Shown one piece after another: positions 39,376 through 44,268 of a DNA stretch of 64,000 nt (positions are counted from its first letter, which is position 1; the number at the start of each line of letters is the position of its first letter). A program made the translations under genes and the position numbers. Source of the stretch: Anabaena sp. UHCC 0187 (GTDB taxonomy: Bacteria; Cyanobacteriota; Cyanobacteriia; Cyanobacteriales; Nostocaceae). The stretch covers positions 191,146 through 255,145 of the forward strand of contig NZ_VILB01000011.1 of assembly GCF_009712035.1 (NCBI RefSeq), in the 5' to 3' direction. The notes beneath the pieces are model-generated. The model had not been told where the DNA came from. It saw nothing but the letters and a program-made list of their open reading frames with translations, and searched no databases.

Positions 39376-42300
39376 ATGAAGCCTGCAATATCTCTAATTA
39401 TCACAGTTTATAATCGAGAAAAATATCTTGGTGCTGCGATTGAAAGTGTATTAGCTCAGACGAGAAGTGATTTTGAGCTATTAATTTGGGATGATGGATC
39501 AACAGATACTTCATTAACAATAGCTCGTAAATACGAAAAATGCGATCGCCGGATAAAAGTCATAAGTTCCGAAAATTTAGGACAGTCTCAAGCATTACAA
39601 AGAGGATTTTCGCAAATGTCTGCTCCCTATGTGGGATGGTTGGATAGTGATGATTTATTAGCACCAACCGCACTAGCAGAAACTGCTCAGGTTTTGGATC
39701 AAAAACCCGATATTGGTTGGGTTTATACAGACTATTTAGATATTGATGAAAAGGATGCAATTCTGAGTTATGGCTATCGTTGTCTTGTTCCCTATAGTCG
39801 AGAAGAATTATTAAATAAATTCATGACATTTCACTTTCGGCTAATTCGTCGAGAAATATTGGAATTAGTGGGGGGAATTAATGAAAAGTCAGAAGTATCA
39901 GATTATGATTTATGTATCAAACTATCAGAAGTTAGTCAAGTAGAACATATATTCAAACCTCTTTACTATTATCGCACCCATCCAGATAGTCTATCTTGGC
40001 AACGTCCACATATACAAATTAAAGATTCTTATAAAGCCATAGTTGCAGCCCAAAAACGTCGTCAACTAGCAAATAAATCTTGGAATAAATCTTGGACAAA
40101 TTGGGTAGCATCTAGTATATTTCCTTTCTGTTTAGGATTATTTTTTCATCCTGCTCAAGCCCAAATTACACCAGCTAATGATGGAACAGGAACTATTATT
40201 AATAATCAAGGCAATAATATTAATATTACTGGTGGTAGCGTTAGCAGTGATAATGCCAATTTATTTCATAGTTTCTCACAATTTGGGTTAGATGCTAATC
40301 AAACTGCTAATTTTTTAGCTCAACCATCTATTCAAAATATTTTAGGTAGAGTAACAGGTGGTAATGCTTCTGTTGTTAATGGCTTAATTCAAGTTACTGG
40401 TAGTAATGCTAATTTATATCTAATTAACCCAGCAGGAATTATATTTGGAGCTAATTCTAGTTTAAATGTTCCGGCATCTTTTACCGCAACTACAGCCAAT
40501 GGTATTCAATTTGGTAATCAATGGTTTAACACCATTGGTGCTAATAATTATAGTAATTTAGTTGGTAATCCCACAGGATTTGGTTTTATAACTAATCAAC
40601 CAGGAAGTATTTTTAATGCGGGAAATTTGGCAGTTAAAACAGGGCAAAGTTTCACATTATTGGGAGGTTCAGTTATCAATACAGGGACGCTCACTGCTCC
40701 CAGTGGTAACATCAAAATTATGGCAGTTTCCGGAAATAAACTTGTCAGAATTACCCCAGACAATAGTCTCTTGAGTGTAGATTTACCCATAGAAACCCAA
40801 AATGAAATTAATCCCCAACCATTCACACCTCTTTCTTTACCACAACTTCTCACAGGGGGAAATCTTCCCAGTGCAACGGGATTTACTGTGGAAAATGGTG
40901 AAATTAAGCTGACGAGTACAAATACAGTTATTCCTAGTAATCCTGGTACGACTATTATTAGTGGACAGGTATCGGTTGCTAACTCTGAGAATACTAATAA
41001 TACTACACCTCAAATCCAAATTTTAGGCGATCGCATAGCCCTATTTAATGCCAATATTAATGCTAATGGTGTCAACGGTGGTACAATCCTCATTGGTGGA
41101 GATTATCAAGGTAAAGGTACAATTCCCAGAGCTATTAATACCTACACAAATCAGAATTCTGTGATTAGTGCCAATGGTACAAATGGTAATGGTGGTAAAG
41201 TCATTGTTTGGGCAGATGACACTAACCGTTTCTTTGGTAAAATTACAGCCACAGGTATTAATGGTGGATTTGTTGAAACTTCTGGTAAAAACTTTTTAGA
41301 TGTTAATGGTGCTATTGTTAATGCCGAAAATTGGTTATTAGATCCTACAAATGTAGAAATTGTCAGTGGTGGTACAGGAAGTTTAACAGGTGGTCTTTTT
41401 GATCCTGGTGGTAATACTAACATTGATCCTGCTACCATTGTTTCTGCTTTATCTACAGGTACAAACGTAACTATTACCACAGCTAGTGGGACAGGTGGTA
41501 ATGGTGATATTACCTTAAGTAATAGTATTACTCAATCAGTCTTAGGTAGTGGATCTCTAACTTTAACAGGTAGGAGATTTAACCGTAATTCCTATGGTTC
41601 ACCTACTATTACCATAAATGGTGCATTAACATTTAATATTAATCAAATTAACCCAGAAATAATAGCTCCTAGCAGTTCTATTCAAAATGCTATAGATGCC
41701 ATTGGTAATGTAGGAGGAGGGACAACAATCAACCTCGGTGCAGGTACTTATCAAAGTTTACCAGGAACACCAATTTATATTACTAATAATATCACAATTA
41801 ACGGTGCTGATCCTATCAATACCTTTCTTGATGGCAATAATCAAAACTGTGTATTTACAATTTCCAATAATGAGATAACCCTCAATCTGAATAATCTTAG
41901 TGTAATCAATGGTAAATCATTAGGTTTATTCGGTGGTGGTATTGATAATCAAAAGTCTGGAACTACGATTAACATTGATAATGTTAATTTTAAAGCTAAT
42001 TCTTCCGTTTATGGAGGTGCTATATATAATCCCTCTGGTGGTATTTTAAACATTAGTAATAGTACCTTTAGTGGTAATTCGGCTACAGGCAACGGTGGTG
42101 CTATTTATAACTATTTTGGTACAACAAACATTAGTAATAGTACCTTTAGTGGTAATTCGGCTACAGACAACGGTGGTGCTATTTATAACTATTTTGGTAC
42201 AATAAATATTAATAATGCTACTTTAAGTGGTAATTCTGCAAGTATCACGGGTGGAGGTATTTACAACCCCTATGGATCTATAACACTTCAGAATACAATT

Positions 42301-44268
42301 GTCGCAGGTAATACAGGTTCAACAAATCCTGATATATCTGGAAGTCTGGATACAACCAGTAGTTACAACCTTATTGGTAATGATACTGGGATGACAGGTA
42401 TTACCAATGGTAGCAATGGCAATCAAGTTGGTACTGCTGCTGCACCAATTGATCCTAAACTAGCAGTATTAGGCGATTATGGTGGTAAAACTCCAACTAT
42501 GGCCTTATTACCAGATAGTCCTGCTATTAATGCTGGTCTTTTAGATTTTGATTTTCCCACAGATCAACGTGGTATTTCTCGACCTCAAGGCACATCATCG
42601 GACATTGGTGCATTTGAAGTAGTTGGTTATACTATTATGCCTGTTGGGGGTTCGGGACAAAGTACAACGGTAAATACTGCTTTTGCTACAAATTTACAGG
42701 CACAGGTAACAGAAAATGGTTTTAGTAAAACAATTCCTGGTGTAACATTAACATTTAATGCTCCTATTAGTGGTGCAAGTGCAAGTTTCACTGGTAGCAG
42801 TACCTTAACTACTAATAGTAGTGGTATTGTCTCTATTCCCGTTCAAGCAAATACCATTGCCGGCACTTATAATATTACTGCTAATAGTGGGATTTTAACA
42901 CCTGCTCAATTTAGTTTAACGAATAATCCCGATGTTCCTACTAATAATCCCGATGTTCCTGAGCAGCCACCAGAAATTAAATCTGATCAGCCACCTATAA
43001 TAATTAACCCTCCACTAAAAGTTAACATCAATCCTGTGGTAGAAATTGATCAAAAATTTACTAATGAGTTTAAACAATATTTATCAATTACAGATAATAC
43101 TGAAATTGTATCTGTAAATGAAGCGCAGGGAATACTGACAAAAGTTAGTGATGCTACTGGCATAAAACCGGGATTAATATATGTGAATTTTGTACCGACA
43201 AATATTGCAAACGCAGATTCACAAATTATTAAGTCTGATAGTGATAACTTAGAATTATTAATTGTCACTGGTAAGGGTGAACCAATTCGGAAAATCATTA
43301 ATGTTACTCGTTCTCAAGTCATAGAAGTGGCTAAAAACTTGAAAATGGCAGTTACAGATACGACACTGCGGACTAACTATAAAAAGCCAGCCAAACAAAT
43401 GTATGATTGGCTAATTAAACCGATAGAGTCAGAACTGCAAAAACAAAAAATAGATAATTTAGTATTTATCATGGATGGGGGATTGCGATCGCTCCCCATC
43501 GCTACCCTGTATGATGGTGAAAAATATCTGATAGAAAATTATAGCGTGGGTTTGATGCCGAGTCTCAGCCTCAGTGATACTAAATATGTTGATATTAAAA
43601 AAGCTGAGGTTTTGGGTATGGGTGCATCTAAATTTACCAACCAAAATCCCTTACCAGCAGTACCAACAGAATTATCAGCTATTACTGCCCAGTTATGGAC
43701 AGGAAAATCTTTTTTAAATGAAGGTTTTACCCTCAAAAATCTGCAAAACCAGAGACAACAAATACCCTACGGGATTATTCACTTAGCTACTCATGGTGAA
43801 TTTAAAAGCGGTGTCCCTGGTAACTCCTATATTCAATTGTGGGATTCTCAGTTAAAAATGGATCAGTTGCGGCAATTGGGTTGGAATAATCCTCCCGTGG
43901 AGTTAGTCGTATTAAGTGCTTGTCGTACCGCTGTCGGAGACGCACAAGCTGAATTGGGTTTTGCTGGCTTTGCCGTCCAGGCTGGGGCTAAATCTGCATT
44001 AGCCAGTTTATGGTATGTTTCTGATGAAGGGACTTTAGGATTAATGAGTGAGTTCTACAAGCAGTTAAAAACATCTCCCATTAAAGCCGAAGCATTAAGA
44101 CAAGCGCAAATAGCTATGTTAAAAGGAGAAGTCCGAATCCAAGATGGTAAATTACTGATGTCTCGTGGTAACGTAATTCTACCACCCATACTGAGGAAAA
44201 TTGGTCGTAAAGATCTACAACATCCTTATTTTTGGTCTGCTTTTACAATGATTGGTAATCCTTGGTAA
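39376..44268 (+). CDS. GT2 glycosyltransferase fused to TPS/filamentous hemagglutinin passenger and CHAT protease
   Basis: 1630 residues in one uninterrupted frame. Residues 1-235 are a GT2 glycosyltransferase (PAISLIITVYNREKYLGAAI, IWDDGSTDTS, VGWLDSDDLL). Residues 243-262 are a hydrophobic segment ending HPAQA, a textbook signal-peptidase site (cut predicted at 262/263) but in mid-protein. Residues 263 to about 520 are a two-partner-secretion/FHA domain (NLYLINPAGIIFGANSSLNV). Around 720-1070 lies a parallel beta-helix with ITGGGIYN-type repeats, then an Ig-like unit near 1090-1180 and a proline-rich linker. The C-terminus is a CHAT domain with catalytic His1473 (HLATHGEF) and Cys1516 (VVLSACRTAVGD). 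No in-frame ATG, GTG or TTG lies in the codons just before the signal-like segment. No TpsB partner gene is in the window. Confidence 0.85.
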   Translation: MKPAISLIITVYNREKYLGAAIESVLAQTRSDFELLIWDDGSTDTSLTIARKYEKCDRRIKVISSENLGQSQALQRGFSQMSAPYVGWLDSDDLLAPTALAETAQVLDQKPDIGWVYTDYLDIDEKDAILSYGYRCLVPYSREELLNKFMTFHFRLIRREILELVGGINEKSEVSDYDLCIKLSEVSQVEHIFKPLYYYRTHPDSLSWQRPHIQIKDSYKAIVAAQKRRQLANKSWNKSWTNWVASSIFPFCLGLFFHPAQAQITPANDGTGTIINNQGNNINITGGSVSSDNANLFHSFSQFGLDANQTANFLAQPSIQNILGRVTGGNASVVNGLIQVTGSNANLYLINPAGIIFGANSSLNVPASFTATTANGIQFGNQWFNTIGANNYSNLVGNPTGFGFITNQPGSIFNAGNLAVKTGQSFTLLGGSVINTGTLTAPSGNIKIMAVSGNKLVRITPDNSLLSVDLPIETQNEINPQPFTPLSLPQLLTGGNLPSATGFTVENGEIKLTSTNTVIPSNPGTTIISGQVSVANSENTNNTTPQIQILGDRIALFNANINANGVNGGTILIGGDYQGKGTIPRAINTYTNQNSVISANGTNGNGGKVIVWADDTNRFFGKITATGINGGFVETSGKNFLDVNGAIVNAENWLLDPTNVEIVSGGTGSLTGGLFDPGGNTNIDPATIVSALSTGTNVTITTASGTGGNGDITLSNSITQSVLGSGSLTLTGRRFNRNSYGSPTITINGALTFNINQINPEIIAPSSSIQNAIDAIGNVGGGTTINLGAGTYQSLPGTPIYITNNITINGADPINTFLDGNNQNCVFTISNNEITLNLNNLSVINGKSLGLFGGGIDNQKSGTTINIDNVNFKANSSVYGGAIYNPSGGILNISNSTFSGNSATGNGGAIYNYFGTTNISNSTFSGNSATDNGGAIYNYFGTININNATLSGNSASITGGGIYNPYGSITLQNTIVAGNTGSTNPDISGSLDTTSSYNLIGNDTGMTGITNGSNGNQVGTAAAPIDPKLAVLGDYGGKTPTMALLPDSPAINAGLLDFDFPTDQRGISRPQGTSSDIGAFEVVGYTIMPVGGSGQSTTVNTAFATNLQAQVTENGFSKTIPGVTLTFNAPISGASASFTGSSTLTTNSSGIVSIPVQANTIAGTYNITANSGILTPAQFSLTNNPDVPTNNPDVPEQPPEIKSDQPPIIINPPLKVNINPVVEIDQKFTNEFKQYLSITDNTEIVSVNEAQGILTKVSDATGIKPGLIYVNFVPTNIANADSQIIKSDSDNLELLIVTGKGEPIRKIINVTRSQVIEVAKNLKMAVTDTTLRTNYKKPAKQMYDWLIKPIESELQKQKIDNLVFIMDGGLRSLPIATLYDGEKYLIENYSVGLMPSLSLSDTKYVDIKKAEVLGMGASKFTNQNPLPAVPTELSAITAQLWTGKSFLNEGFTLKNLQNQRQQIPYGIIHLATHGEFKSGVPGNSYIQLWDSQLKMDQLRQLGWNNPPVELVVLSACRTAVGDAQAELGFAGFAVQAGAKSALASLWYVSDEGTLGLMSEFYKQLKTSPIKAEALRQAQIAMLKGEVRIQDGKLLMSRGNVILPPILRKIGRKDLQHPYFWSAFTMIGNPW
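42049..42204 (+). repeat. 78-base tandem duplication inside the beta-helix region
   Basis: Two adjacent 78-base units (42049-42126 and 42127-42204) are almost identical, with only two or so differences. Each encodes one 26-residue beta-helix rung pair (NISNSTFSGNSAT...NGGAIYNYFG). The near-identity points to recent duplication and a variable repeat number. Confidence 0.85.

Follow-up and report, generated by a model that had tools for sequence, protein, structure and literature searches.

The open reading frame at positions 39376 to 44268 (+) of the window, the 64,000-nucleotide stretch of Anabaena sp. UHCC 0187 DNA that was analysed, raises the question of why a glycosyltransferase and an exported protein with a protease domain share one gene, and whether they are made as one chain. 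The frame is uninterrupted and encodes 1630 amino acids in the order GT2 glycosyltransferase, internal signal, TPS domain, beta-helix-type middle and CHAT domain. The GT2 domain (residues 1 to 230; 39376 to 40065, +) was assigned by Pfam, conservation, structure model and fold match. It is followed by a linker with an internal signal-peptide-like segment ending in HPAQA (residues 231 to 262; 40066 to 40161, +), by the TPS (FHA-type secretion) domain (residues 263 to 480; 40162 to 40815, +), by an Asn/Thr/Gly-rich passenger middle (40816 to 43245, +), and by the CHAT caspase-like protease region (residues 1291 to 1630; 43246 to 44265, +), which was placed by Pfam, conservation and the model. 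Pfam matches to the window protein were all well over the cut-off, with Glycos_transf_2 at residues 6 to 163 (1.4e-30), TPS at 262 to 474 (4e-40) and CHAT at 1337 to 1628 (2e-73). NCBIfam matched an FHA N-terminal domain and, in the middle part, a choice-of-anchor Q domain (1026 to 1082), where weak Chlam_PMP repeat matches were also found. These assignments agree with the initial annotation, which had proposed a single frame of this length and composition.

The window GT2 has the GT-A fold, the DXD motif and the catalytic Asp of GT2 enzymes (Pfam, conservation, and model with fold match), and it keeps D39, D40, D90-S-D92-D93 and D178. The aspartates 39, 40, 90, 92, 93 and 178 are retained in at least 57 of the 59 fused genes described below. 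The CHAT region has the caspase-like fold and the His-Cys dyad of CHAT proteases, formed by His1473 (43792-43794, +) and Cys1516 (43921-43923, +); the initial numbering of these residues was right, and both are present in 52/52 fused CHAT domains. AlphaFold modelled the GT2 domain (pLDDT mostly above 80 to 90) and the TPS domain with confidence, and confidence was low at residues 236 to 260 (pLDDT <50). The solved structure nearest to the GT2 domain is the second GT domain of K4 chondroitin polymerase, and homology therefore does not reveal the sugar or the acceptor. The CHAT model was closest to the TPR-CHAT protein Csx29, with separase lower in the list. PADLOC gave only marginal BovA-type matches and no defence assignment.

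A scan of species genomes yielded 75 loci with a GT2 relative. When these and extra loci were parsed, 59 distinct genes, including that of the window, carried GT2 and TPS in one frame (L067 is broken), and the same domain order is thus shared by 58 other distinct cyanobacterial genes. A C-terminal CHAT domain is present in essentially all complete fused genes, an exception being L039, where it lies in the next frame. Two other genomes of the window's genus carry the fusion; across GT2, junction and TPS, the identity is 77 to 78%. In an evenly drawn sample of the order, screened for frames of >1000 amino acids, most of which were then fetched and parsed, the fusion was found in about 23 of 245 genomes; it also occurs outside the order (L203). 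The initial annotation had asked whether the fusion recurs in cyanobacteria, and had named a hidden sequencing or assembly error and split genes in close relatives as grounds for giving it up. It does recur, the close relatives are fused, and an assembly or frameshift artefact is ruled out by the 58 other genes. In 15 gene pairs, dN/dS was about 0.05 to 0.5 in GT2, TPS and passenger and mostly 0.05 to 0.4 in linker and signal, with two higher values where dS was tiny. These ratios indicate that purifying selection acts on all segments, the linker included. Together with residue conservation, they rule out a decayed GT2. We conclude that the fusion is a real, conserved design. Two irregular loci were also seen. 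At L150 (2993-10287), a TpsB gene apparently without its end is immediately followed by a GT2-TPS-CHAT frame that lacks the first ~73 GT2 residues, an arrangement which can be read as a deletion or a misassembly, and L067 (5173-7056) is a broken copy with a GT2 frame of 351 amino acids and TpsB fragments alongside.

Stand-alone relatives of the GT2, of about 250 to 270 amino acids, also exist, and the stretches fetched around them, up to about 6 kb to either side, contained no TPS gene. These enzymes end naturally in ...RRGLADRFEVDVQIVGRFSLRRKK, and the linker of the Nostoc-type fusions opens with a matching sequence; in those genes, therefore, a whole GT2 has been joined to a protein of the signal-TPS-CHAT kind. 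Compared with the Nostoc-type fusions, the window's group has a shorter GT2 tail. The fusion is a complete GT2 plus an ordinary signal-TPS-CHAT protein minus its own start. Among 35 unfused TPS genes sampled, none had its TPS domain >150 residues from the frame start, and the GT2 therefore looks like a specific N-terminal partner.

In the window protein, the signal-like segment is SWTNWVASSIFPFCLGLFFHPAQA, which ends at residue 262 (HPAQA, followed by Q), and the TPS domain starts directly after it, as in a TpsA exoprotein. The segment lies behind about 240 residues of GT2 and linker, with no usable internal start codon. Because its signal is internal in this way, the protein is a variant rather than a plain TpsA. 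The linkers of all fused genes contain a basic n-region and a hydrophobic core, usually with AxA before the TPS domain. Compared with unfused signals, the internal segments have a mean of 3.5 versus 2.6 Lys/Arg in the n-region and a similar mean hydrophobicity (2.25 versus 2.22).

TpsB (ShlB/POTRA) genes, candidates for the cognate partner, were found in relatives and in the window's genome. There is no TpsB gene inside the window. Elsewhere in the same genome, where the initial annotation had suggested looking for a ShlB-like gene, there are three full-length ShlB-type TpsB genes and one partial match. In 22 loci, mostly of the Nostoc type, a divergent TpsB gene lies 108 to 382 bp from the fused gene, and ShlB and POTRA_2 were confirmed for two of these adjoining genes. 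In most nearer relatives outside the window's genus (for example L021-L030, L045, L089), the divergent neighbor is instead an exported TPR protein of ~600 amino acids, as at L027:3889-5700, L022:3989-5749 and L045:3964-5841. No close copy of it was found in the window genome, and the two fused genus-mates carry a copy away from the fused gene. Because the nearest solved CHAT structure is a TPR-CHAT protein, this exported protein is put forward as a candidate partner for the CHAT domain. Downstream of some fused genes lies an unfused TPS gene (L022:11021-12718, L026:11033-12718, L089:11171-12694). In L022 and L089, the fused and unfused TPS domains hardly differ, which may reflect recent duplication or gene conversion.

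The likely explanation is a TpsA of the cyanobacterial TPS-CHAT type with a complete GT2 before its signal peptide, probably made as a one-chain precursor that signal peptidase splits. An internal signal behind a cytosolic domain inserts with its N terminus inside, and an AxA motif invites signal peptidase; the proposed topology follows from this Sec biology. GT2, signal, TPS and CHAT would be translated as a single chain, the GT2 would fold in the cytosol, and Sec would insert the internal signal in the N-in orientation. Signal peptidase I would then cut after HPAQA, between residues 262 and 263 and just past position 40161, and the spent signal would remain on the GT2 as a C-terminal membrane tail. 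The TPS-beta-helix-CHAT part would exit to the surface through the TpsB pore, and CHAT would then act as a surface or extracellular protease. The most likely purpose, though it has somewhat less than an even chance, is that the GT2 adds sugar to its own passenger, or to envelope glycans at that site, either ahead of export or while it proceeds, much as HMW1C modifies HMW1A in trans; a transferase in the same chain would secure both pairing and place. The initial annotation had read the frame as a polyprotein. The absence of an internal start, the conserved mid-chain signal, the neighboring TpsB genes in relatives and purifying selection support its one-chain part; the proposed pathway further predicts a cut at 262/263, and the passenger may be glycosylated. 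Several points count against our explanation: the window holds no TpsB gene, sequon and Ser/Thr content is alike in fused and unfused passengers, the nearest solved GT2s make polysaccharides, about a third of the fused signals are anchor-grade, and the start-codon counts given below come from related genes. A more far-reaching version, which we regard as tentative and on the doubtful side, is a self-glycosylating secretion polyprotein in which the nascent passenger is modified in cis by the GT2 and then parted from it by signal peptidase, the GT2 keeps the tail, and the GT2-signal module is reused with a second cargo.

The strongest alternative is a polyprotein without self-modification. The chain would be split as above, the GT2 would act on capsule, EPS or lipid-linked glycans at the membrane, and the fusion would fix only stoichiometry and place. 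We consider this alternative rather unlikely, while noting that it has several points in its favor. The closest solved GT2s are polysaccharide synthases, sequon and Ser/Thr content did not differ between fused and unfused passengers, so that the fused passenger shows no glycosite enrichment, and a sister group has unrelated cargo behind the same GT2 and signal. Against it, the repeated coupling to TPS-CHAT in particular and the HMW1C/HMW1A precedent both suggest that the passenger is the substrate.

The sister group comprises genes of Phormidium, Geitlerinema and Baaleninema (L072:6001-7137, L082:5225-6460, L083:6001-7224, L084:6001-7209, L086:6001-7194, and also L205, L208 and L209). They encode the same GT2 and tail, the signal RSRVAAVLASLSLPLIPLNATA or a close form, and then a second cargo of about 130 residues, rich in Pro, Gly and Tyr and without TPS or CHAT; Pfam matched only GT2 in these proteins. 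A GT2-type gene lies directly upstream of the second-cargo gene in L082-L084 and L086 (in L083, a weak GT41 match), and a Rhomboid protease gene lies about 70 to 110 bp downstream in L084 and L086. In the GT2 tree, a clade of the fused genes alone was rejected (AU p 1e-4). A clade of the fused genes, the second-cargo group and two contig-edge rows was not rejected (p 0.83), a grouping picked post hoc after the tree had been seen. Because this clade was not rejected, a single origin of the GT2 plus internal signal, with cargo swapped later, is possible. In the TPS-domain tree, the fused rows fall in several groups, intermixed with unfused ones (at least 5 changes), and passenger exchange or repeated fusion is therefore possible as well. 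The GT2 would appear to be a promiscuous module. The same GT2 is also fused to further GT2 domains or other regions in L073, L076, L079, L081, L163 and L151; by eye, L163 joins it to a sulfotransferase-like region, and in L151 it stands behind another long region.

An uncleaved type II membrane protein, with a cytosolic GT2 and a periplasmic TPS-CHAT part anchored by the internal segment, is improbable. Enzyme-TM-ectodomain chains such as the PASTA kinases exist, and in 20 of the 59 fused genes the segment has a hydrophobicity that would suffice for an anchor (19-mer at least 1.9). Over the fused genes as a whole, the hydrophobic run is slightly longer than in ordinary TPS signals (median 18 versus 15). 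The window segment, however, has a short run of 16 and a weak best 19-mer of 1.24; it is close to ordinary TPS signals and too weakly hydrophobic for a stable membrane anchor. AxA stands right before the TPS domain in 46/59 fused genes, and a TpsB gene adjoins the fused gene in the 22 loci described above. In addition, once exported by Sec, TpsA proteins approach TpsB from the periplasmic side (PMC5422565), and a TPS domain tethered at the inner membrane could not traverse the TpsB pore.

It is very improbable that the frame yields two proteins by means of an internal, perhaps non-standard, start ahead of the signal. An ATG or TTG is found close to the hydrophobic core in a few relatives, but most fused genes have no ATG or GTG within 30 codons of it. 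An ATG lies ≤30 codons before the core in 4/59 fused genes, whereas 31/35 unfused TPS genes have one (Fisher p 3e-16; since the fused genes are related to one another, the counts are not independent). In the window, the nearest in-frame ATG upstream of the signal is codon 150, 94 codons before the core, and the nearest GTG is codon 165, 79 codons before it. No in-frame ATG, GTG or TTG lies in the 79 codons before the core, which extends the initial remark that none was available just before the segment, and an internal start in the window was rejected for lack of a start codon. It is likewise scarcely probable that the GT2 has no catalytic role and, as an N-terminal extension, only slows or guides export in the manner of the extended signal peptides through which some TpsA proteins are exported late, given the catalytic Asp kept in nearly all of the 59 fused genes and the low dN/dS of the GT2.

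No description of a GT2-signal-TPS-CHAT fusion was found among the titles and abstracts that the literature searches listed. Few bacterial proteins place a cytosolic enzyme before a conserved internal export signal; the present arrangement is old and widespread. It may pair a glycosyltransferase inside the cell with a surface protein that it may decorate, and it links a glycosyltransferase directly, at the genetic level, to a secreted caspase-like protease. It also offers a simple test case of whether bacteria split polyproteins by signal peptidase and whether a GT2 is able to glycosylate the passenger it is fused to, for which filamentous Nostoc strains with a fused gene and an adjoining TpsB are possible test systems. 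If true, reuse of the GT2-signal module would be a general way of coupling a glycosyltransferase to export.

Finally, we compared the window protein with known systems. The nearest solved folds to its CHAT domain, Csx29 TPR-CHAT (Craspase) and separase, are cytosolic proteins regulated by RNA or securin, whereas the window CHAT is attached to a secreted-type passenger. For internal signals, a literature search gave nothing usable. FbcH, the cytochrome b/c1 precursor of Bradyrhizobium, has an internal signal at which signal peptidase cleaves it, and the two products end up in different places. Like the window protein, it is one chain with an internal signal, but the proteins are unrelated to those studied here and both stay in one membrane complex. 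Unfused cyanobacterial TPS-CHAT proteins likewise have a signal, a TPS domain, a repetitive middle and a C-terminal CHAT (in the sample, 18/21 complete unfused TPS frames had CHAT at their end). In contrast to the window gene, they have no GT2 and have their own ATG, typically about 20 to 30 codons ahead of the TPS domain. HMW1C is a GT41 transferase; Pfam found no GT41 match in the window protein, which lacks an HMW1C-type, GT41-like sequence. The three-partner system HMW1A/HMW1B/HMW1C of Haemophilus influenzae likewise pairs a TpsA adhesin with its own dedicated glycosyltransferase, which is cytoplasmic and acts before Sec export (PMC3983070, PMC5422565). HMW1C glycosylates HMW1A in the cytoplasm before export and stabilizes and tethers it (PMC3983070). 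Whereas HMW1C is of another transferase class and is encoded by a separate gene, the GT2 of the window lies in the same chain as the passenger, ahead of its signal.
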